Positions 13,725-59,100 of a stretch of DNA of 64,000 bases are shown piece after piece (the stretch's first letter is position 1; the number at the start of each line of letters is the position of its first letter). The notes below the pieces were generated by a model. It was not told the DNA's origin and searched no databases. It was given only the letters and a program-made list of their open reading frames with translations. Source of the stretch: Haladaptatus sp. DJG-WS-42. GTDB taxonomy: Archaea > Halobacteriota > Halobacteria > Halobacteriales > Halococcaceae. Location of the stretch: contig NZ_CP147243.1 of assembly GCF_037198285.1 (NCBI RefSeq), positions 2,472,422-2,536,421 on the forward strand, read 5' to 3'. Position numbers and translations under genes: made by a program.

Positions 13725-13796
13725 GGGCTTGTAGATCAGGGGTAGATCACTCCCTTGGCATGGGAGAGGCCCCGGGTTCAAATCCCGGCAAGTCCA
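13725..13796 (+). tRNA. tRNA-Ala (anticodon GGC)
   Basis: A complete 72-nt cloverleaf: acceptor stem GGGCTTG/CAAGTCC containing the G3-U70 pair that identifies alanine tRNAs, D stem GATC/GATC with loop AGGGGTA, anticodon stem CTCCC/GGGAG with loop TTGGCAT (anticodon GGC), five-base variable loop AGGCC, and T stem CCGGG/CCCGG with loop TTCAAAT. Discriminator base A; the 3' CCA is not encoded. No intron. The last 14 bases (TCCCGGCAAGTCCA) recur downstream at 13868-13881 and 14184-14197, and lack one base at 14319-14331. Confidence 0.97.
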
Positions 13797-14340
13797 TTTC
13801 CTTCCTTCACTTCGTTCAGTCAGTCAATGGACTTGCCGTCCCTCGCAAACACTCTGTGTTTGCTCAGTCCCGGCAAGTCCACTATTACTTTCCGCCGCTA
13901 AACCGACGAGCGTAGCGAGTCGCTGGTGGCGCGTAAGTACTGTACGACGCAGTCGGGAATGAGCAGGGCCCTGCCCTGCGAATTCGGTGTGGCTCACGAA
14001 GTGAGTTACACGTGAGTTGAAGCCCTGTGAGTCTCGTGAGCGACGCGAACGAGACGACGGCAGAACTCGTTCTGCCGGAAGTCGCAGCACCCGAACGAAG
14101 TGAGGGTGACCGTCTCACTCCGGGTTCAAATCTTGAAGCGGCAAAGCCGCTTCAAAGTTCACACCTCCGGAGGCGGTGTTCACTCCCGGCAAGTCCATTT
14201 CCTTCCTTCACTTCGTTCAATCAGTCAATGGACTTGCTATACCTCGAAAACACTCCGTGTTTGCTCACTTCCGGCGAACGAGTTCGCCGACCTTCGTGGA
14301 AACTTCGTTTCCACTCAGTCCCGGCAAGTCAACTGCGACC
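13797..14340 (+). repeat. Hairpin array with repeated tRNA-Ala 3' ends
   Basis: No credible gene. The stretch is a chain of short, mostly perfect, mutually different hairpins: 13787-13796/13828-13837 (10 bp), 13845-13863 (8 bp, loop 3), 13963-13979 (7 bp), 13993-14005, 14058-14077 (9 bp, loop 2), 14133-14155 (10 bp, loop AAA), 14161-14179, 14272-14289 (8 bp, loop 2) and 14296-14314 (8 bp, loop TTC). Among them lie three copies of the tRNA-Ala 3' end. Repeated tRNA 3' ends are what serial integration at a tRNA gene leaves behind, but no integrase or element body is present. Long frames here (e.g. 14027-14395) are hairpin read-through. Confidence 0.75.
14184..14268 (+). repeat. Second copy of an 85-bp direct repeat of the tRNA-Ala 3' flank
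   Basis: This stretch matches 13783-13867 with about nine to eleven differences: the tRNA 3' end, then TTTCCTTCCTTCACTTCGTT, a TGGACTTGC inverted copy, and the AAACAC/GTGTTT hairpin. Copy 1 is in place behind the tRNA; copy 2 is 401 bp further on. Both copies are followed by another tRNA 3' end (13868 and 14319). Confidence 0.8.
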
Positions 14341-58701: not shown

Positions 58702-59013
58702 ACTGCCAGCGACTGCTGAGTGTGGCGGGGTTGTGAGACTCAAGCTTTCGTTATTGTCTGGCGCGCGCACGTGTGTGAAAGTCAAAATCAACGACAACTA
58801 CGGGCTGCATCGCAGCTTGCTTGCGCCACCTTGCGTGTGGAATTATCGACCGCCGTAACGTGTTGTACAGTCAAAACAATCAGATTGTGTGAATAAGTTG
58901 GCGTATTGTCTGACTTTCGTCAGACGCAGATTAGTGGGTTTGTAAAACCCCCATCTGACAGGCGACTCGTTGGATGATACGAGTTATCACAATTCGCAGA
59001 ATACCACAAAGCA

Positions 59014-59020
59014 TTTATAA
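59014..59020 (+). promoter_or_regulatory. TATA box of the S-layer gene
   Basis: TTTATAA in GCATTTATAATGAG, 150 bp upstream of the start codon; predicts a leader of about 120-130 nt that carries the hairpin at 59085-59100. Confidence 0.6.
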
Positions 59021-59084
59021 TGAGAGGCTATCTTTTGCACTGTACCCCTACCCATGGTGACAGTACGGAGTAACGCTCGCCGGA

Positions 59085-59100
59085 CCCGAGATCTCTCGGG
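59085..59100 (+). other. Perfect hairpin in the S-layer mRNA leader
   Basis: CCCGAGA-TC-TCTCGGG: a 7-bp stem with a 2-nt spacer, about 70 nt before the start codon. It could stabilise the mRNA or form part of a regulatory fold; it is not followed by a T-run. Confidence 0.5.

Follow-up and report, generated by a model that had tools for sequence, protein, structure and literature searches.

The window analysed here, a 64-kb stretch forming part of a 2.78-Mb haloarchaeal chromosome, carries on its forward strand a tRNA-Ala(GGC) gene at 13725-13796 (ARAGORN; Rfam RF00005). The last 13 nt of this gene, CCCGGCAAGTCCA (hereafter the tail), are copied 3' of the gene. An S15-Halobacteria ribosomal protein leader (RF03143; 13546-13613, reverse strand), which immediately precedes the divergent S15 gene, adjoins the tRNA and provides a fixed point for locating orthologous flanks. 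When the array behind the tRNA was searched against Rfam, only the tRNA reached the gathering score, with nothing else above chance.

Three tail copies in direct orientation divide the region 13797-14332 into three units, which are read on the forward strand together with their hairpins. Unit 1 (type I, 13797-13881) runs from a T-rich trailer through an inverted tail copy, AATGGACTTGCCG (13826-13838, reverse strand, 100% identity), and a perfect hairpin of the H2 family, GCAAACAC-TCT-GTGTTTGC (13845-13863), to the first direct tail copy (13869-13881, no mismatches). Unit 2 (13882-14197) is an expanded type II unit, in which a series of hairpins leads to a T-loop copy, a double-hairpin insert and a tail copy. 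An imperfect hairpin with the tip motif GAGCGTAGCGA (13908-13918) occupies the hairpin A position (13892-13932) and is followed by a perfect hairpin with a stem of 7 (13963-13979), two imperfect hairpins (13988-14012 and 14031-14055), a perfect hairpin with a stem of 9 (14058-14077) and an imperfect hairpin at about 14087-14107 whose tip motif, GAACGAAGTGA, lies at 14093-14103. The 5' part of the tRNA T-arm is then copied as CCGGGTTCAAATC (14121-14133) and separated from the 3' part by the two hairpins of the insert, a perfect H1 with a stem of 10 (14133-14155) and an H2 made imperfect by a mismatch (14160-14180), before the second direct tail copy closes the unit (14185-14197, no mismatches). 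Unit 3 (14198-14332), a type I unit with extra hairpins, contains a second inverted tail copy (14227-14237, reverse strand) and two perfect hairpins with stems of 8, one of which (14272-14289) is common to the tRNA-Asp array with one base changed and the other (14296-14314) to both the tRNA-Asp and tRNA-Ala(CGC) arrays. The third direct tail copy, with one mismatch, ends the array (14320-14332). Units 1 and 3 have in common a T-rich start, an inverted tail and a hairpin before the tail, and 13797-13838 of unit 1 is nearly duplicated, with three differences, in the first 42 nt of unit 3 (14198-14239).

Hairpin density and folding of the array

Counting as perfect any hairpin with a stem of at least 7 and a loop of 2-4, the region 13797-14340 holds six in 544 bp. 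The expectation over the same length is about 0.2, whether calculated from the whole window (0.24) or from 120 kb of the same chromosome (0.19), and 500 dinucleotide shuffles gave a mean of 0.15 and a maximum of 3. Away from this tRNA and its surroundings, the window reaches at most three per 544 bp, at about 58.85-59.1 kb; that spot (58850-59100) lies upstream of a gene with a signal-peptide-like start and has no tRNA nearby. Folding of both strands against shuffled controls, as proposed in the original prediction, gave z-scores of -10.0 for RNA of the forward strand, -6.3 for RNA of the reverse strand and -9.5 for DNA, and no shuffle folded as well as the array in any of the three. The claim that hairpins are unusually dense here was thus borne out, although the count of at least eight perfect ones was too high: six are perfect and several imperfect, and the one placed at 14161-14179 contains a mismatch. 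The accompanying view that the stems are unrelated and form no repeat family was wrong, as it missed the three direct and two inverted tail copies, the T-loop copy, the near-duplication between units 1 and 3, and the related modules behind other tRNA genes.

Related cassettes behind other tRNA genes

In the same genome, the last 13 nt of the tRNA recur within 800 bp downstream of 24/44 tRNA genes, allowing up to two mismatches, and upstream of three, with each array copying the tail of its own tRNA. The copied length is 13-14 nt in type I units and about 22 nt in type II units. The arrays elsewhere have up to 3-4 tail copies, and the units measure roughly 65-320 bp, a length into which integrase or mobile-element genes would not fit. 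The simplest unit, behind tRNA-Thr (L061), reads tail, TTCTTGTCGCGAACAACACCGTGAGCGACAG, spacer, GGGATTTGAATCAGGGAGCGA...GCGACCGTGGTTCAAATCCC, tail, and from this sequence the core GGATTTGAA..GGTTCAAATCC can be recognised as an inverted T-loop paired with a direct T-loop. The frame CTCGCAAA..TTTGCTCA of the type I (H2-family) hairpin occurs at five places in the genome, each of them 3' of a tRNA and no more than 350 bp away from it. Longer blocks are common to separate arrays: 14014-14153 of unit 2 matches the tRNA-Ala(CGC) array of this genome with 96% identity, and 14260-14325 of unit 3 is 94% identical over 66 bp to a block behind tRNA-Asp, the similarity stopping in TCCCGGC, which is present in both tails. 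The tip motif GARCGNAGYGA alone is not tRNA-specific, with 79 of the 100 genomic matches listed lying away from tRNAs, approximately the rate of the reversed control.

Two further observations concern individual loci. Two tRNA-Asp(GTC) genes lie about 550 bp apart (L003, G000:C1:1761290-1764355), each followed by a hairpin array, and one tRNA-Asp with its first unit was apparently duplicated as a whole. Behind tRNA-Ala(CGC), the loop of a hairpin is inverted between sister genomes (L051/L053), which read GCAAACGC-TTC-GCGTTTGC and GCAAACGC-GAA-GCGTTTGC, respectively.

The core pattern was found in 40/393 genomes of the phylum, 40/40 of them in the order of the window and none among the other phylum members sampled, and the reversed-pattern control gave zero. 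Among the haloarchaeal matches listed from named genomes, which include Haloferax, Haloarcula, Halorubrum, Natrinema, Natronococcus, Halorientalis and Halobacterium, a tRNA on the same strand precedes the core by 31-261 bp in 49/51; the remaining two sit where the retrieved sequence ends, making the figure 49/49 testable places. The exact last 11 nt of the neighbouring tRNA then follow the core in 36 of these 49 listed matches, and in the control 0/245 carried them with 0-1 mismatch. A genome of a distant haloarchaeal family has tail copies downstream of 16/29 tRNAs and upstream of one, and for two genomes from the phylum but outside the haloarchaea the downstream counts are 0/33 and 1/30, the single case being a tandem tRNA-Met. 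Pattern matches outside the haloarchaea were set aside, being mostly without a tRNA or inside tRNA genes. The latter include tRNA-Ser genes of Poseidoniales (L124, L130, L166, L170, L175, L184, L188), which contain GGATTTGAA..GGTTCAAATCC internally as an unrelated match.

Whole-unit differences within the genus and pairing in the hairpins

Three species of the genus were compared for the presence or absence of units, whichever the direction of change. With at most one mismatch allowed, downstream tail copies were found at 21/44, 11/42 and 17/44 tRNAs, and upstream copies at two in each. The number of tail copies in the three species differs by tRNA, for example 3/0/0 at Val-tac, 0/0/2 at Asn and 2/0/0 at Gly-tcc. 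Unit 1 of the array described above is missing from both orthologous loci within the genus (G001/G002), where the displacement is 85-86 bp. For about a dozen tRNA types, the post-tRNA sequence of one species is displaced in another by the exact length of the extra units, and this whole-unit displacement coincides with a tail-copy end at Ala-ggc (85 bp), Asn (148 bp), Cys (98 bp), Leu-caa (102 bp), Leu-taa (106 bp), Ser-gga (203 bp) and Tyr (117 bp), as well as at Arg-cct, Arg-gcg, Gln-ttg and Val-gac. The extra units are mostly tRNA-proximal, but interior differences exist, as at Arg-gcg and Arg-tct, and deletion could account for both. Whole-unit displacements contradict gradual drift as the sole process. 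The orthologous flanks, whose comparison had been suggested from the outset, thus uphold the idea of an evolving palindrome-rich element, with entire modules gained or lost at tRNA-tail boundaries. The related suggestion of a recombinase hotspot is half right, in that footprints are present as direct and some inverted tail copies; the recombinase itself is putative.

Pairing is maintained as the sequences change. In 24 gap-free core hairpins, eight pairs have changed on both sides, a number reached by none of 500 shuffles; the core sequences were partly selected by their invariant ends, and it is consequently the inner pairs that constitute the evidence of covariation. In tips of the form GA-NN-GNA-NN-GA both inner pairs are Watson-Crick in 96/152, and two covarying tip motifs were recognised, GA-RC-GNA-GY-GA and GA-RC-AAN4-GY-GA. 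The first, found in the tips of hairpins A and B at many haloarchaeal loci, contains the 7-mer GCGNAGC. DNA of this sequence forms an unusually stable mini-hairpin, and its presence in the tips could favour hairpins at the DNA level. Initial counts of G-U versus A-C in stems (46 versus 18; 19 versus 3) pointed to selection on RNA, but the excess was due to a single T.G position that recurs next to the T-loop; with that position left out the counts were 11 versus 16, 6 versus 3 and 8 versus 12, no RNA bias was found, and the conclusion was dropped. A structured non-coding RNA is possible: compensatory changes preserve pairing, but the G-U versus A-C test shows no RNA bias. On average, 3.6 of the 8 nt following a tRNA and 3.5 of those following a tail copy are T, compared with 1.6 elsewhere.

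Origin and significance of the cassettes

Taken together, three short palindromic cassettes, arranged in tandem and anchored to tRNA-Ala(GGC) at its 3' end, probably make up the region 13797-14332. They would represent a haloarchaeal family found behind many different tRNAs and turned over by recombination between tail copies. Each cassette extends from just past one tRNA tail to the next tail copy and comprises a T-rich start, at least one hairpin and 13-22 nt copied from the 3' end of the host tRNA; the hairpin is often the GGATTTGAA..GGTTCAAATCC core, made of inverted and direct copies of the universal T-loop. Judging from the breakpoints, cassettes would multiply and disappear as tail copies, including the tail of the tRNA itself, recombine with one another, and hairpin modules may pass between tRNA loci through recombination in the T-arm sequence that tRNAs have in common. 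Such exchange would leave hairpin tips variable and ends and tails constant, and tail and T-loop copies would be ready substrates by which units can be deleted, duplicated or exchanged. Recombination between repeats of 13-22 bp accounts for loss and duplication, but not for quite different tRNA-adjacent units such as those at Cys-gca and Leu-taa. The likeness of the core hairpin across the order likewise implies that it is either selected or really mobile, neither of which plain recombination needs. The appearance of new units is compatible with tRNA-adjacent insertion accompanied by tail duplication and also with old elements that gene conversion has maintained. Retro-copying from mature tRNA was ruled out, as the tail copies carry no added CCA. 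Our guess is that the cassettes are neutral to mildly useful, for example as back-up transcription stops, a role that is conceivable because T-rich DNA follows each tail copy just as it follows tRNAs.

The units could alternatively be structured pre-tRNA trailers under RNA-level selection: transcription would continue beyond the tRNA, hairpins and T-stretches would halt or delay the polymerase or direct 3' processing, and the tail copy would belong to the signal. Consistent with this, the hairpins begin directly after the tRNA, tRNAs and tail copies are followed by similarly T-rich DNA, the sense-strand fold is the stronger one (z of -10.0 versus -6.3) and the tip motifs covary; Haloferax volcanii is also known to terminate at T-stretches and hairpins, with two termination sites at tRNA-Pro (PMC7237163). 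We regard such trailers as possible but not probable, given that G-U pairs do not exceed A-C once the recurrent position is removed, that copy number varies freely between species and is often zero, and that the tail copies in the units read are without the 5' strand of the T-stem and so should not fold as a processing substrate. Formation of each palindrome locally, by template switching at stalled forks and without shared ancestry, would explain why stems are mostly perfect and how the tRNA-Ala(CGC) loop came to be inverted between sister genomes. That one core sequence stands behind a variety of tRNAs in many genera requires common descent, however, and largely refutes this origin, to which we give almost no credence.

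Mobility in the stricter sense takes two forms. Miniature transposons with target duplication might depend on an integrase, casposase-like or of another type, for which tRNA 3' ends are the recognition site, with arrays growing at the tRNA as CRISPR arrays do at the leader. Extra units are indeed most often tRNA-proximal, tail-copy mismatches tend to rise distally (17 arrays versus 8), and the duplication made by the Aciduliprofundum casposase at the tRNA-Pro 3' end measures 14 bp (PMC6614799), close to the 13-14 nt copied in type I units. On the other hand, Cas1 (PF01867) had no match in the genome although control genomes were positive, which excludes a casposase encoded here; type II units duplicate about 22 nt, terminal inverted repeats are absent, and proximal differences are also expected from deletion via the tRNA's own tail, with interior differences occurring as well. 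Such transposons therefore appear unlikely, and the notion of tRNA-led arrays that grow from one end, like CRISPR or integron arrays, only slightly less so. Still less likely are the scars of site-specific integration, left where integrative elements entered tRNA 3' ends, duplicated the tail and decayed to short remnants. Archaeal integrases do favour tRNA 3' ends (PMC8371274), and long tail-flanked insertions are known from haloarchaea (PMC3119063), but the units are spaced too regularly, at roughly 65-260 bp, and random decay would not give the identical remnant that is seen as one hairpin core behind different tRNAs across the order. No plasmid or phage source was found by DNA similarity, and viral contigs were rejected as a source, their pattern matches either lacking a nearby tRNA in the right arrangement or being unlike the cassette.

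Among known systems, the tyrT/rtT locus of E. coli also consists of tandem repeats behind a tRNA gene, each with a piece of that tRNA's 3' end, and the array described here resembles it in having tandem units (three here) that each end in such a piece. That system is a single enterobacterial locus with near-identical repeats, whereas the haloarchaeal units occur behind many tRNA types, order-wide, with differing hairpin sequences. Palindrome-associated transposable elements (PATEs) and IS605-type elements are, like the cassettes, short, non-coding, haloarchaeal and palindromic, and PATEs insert without target duplication (PMC3119063). The cassettes differ from both in carrying copies of their own tRNA tail at their ends, and from the dispersed nature of such elements in their location, with the H2 frame at 5/5 and the core at 49/49 testable listed places behind tRNAs. 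Casposons, which make a 14-bp duplication at a tRNA 3' end (PMC6614799), likewise use such an end, but they encode Cas1 and PolB and have terminal inverted repeats, none of which is present in the array. The att scars of tyrosine integrases (PMC8371274, PMC3119063) similarly have a direct downstream copy of the tRNA 3' end, but flank kilobases of DNA and an integrase, in contrast to units of about 100 bp with a common hairpin core. In Methanopyrus, a palindrome reported to be specific to M. kandleri and built on one short motif lies behind about half of the tRNA genes (PMC5217627); it is tRNA-linked like the cassettes, but has a different motif, and tail copies are not described for it. The combination seen in the cassettes is not present in tyrT, PATEs or the Methanopyrus palindrome, and no earlier description of tRNA-tail hairpin cassettes was found in the open-access literature, so we provisionally consider them undescribed.

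If the cassettes are mobile, they would represent a new use of tRNA genes as landing sites; if they act as RNA, they would be an unlisted family of trailers linked to tRNA output. Either way, they mark fast change in an otherwise conserved neighbourhood, and searches for integration sites or tRNA fragments can be led astray by them.
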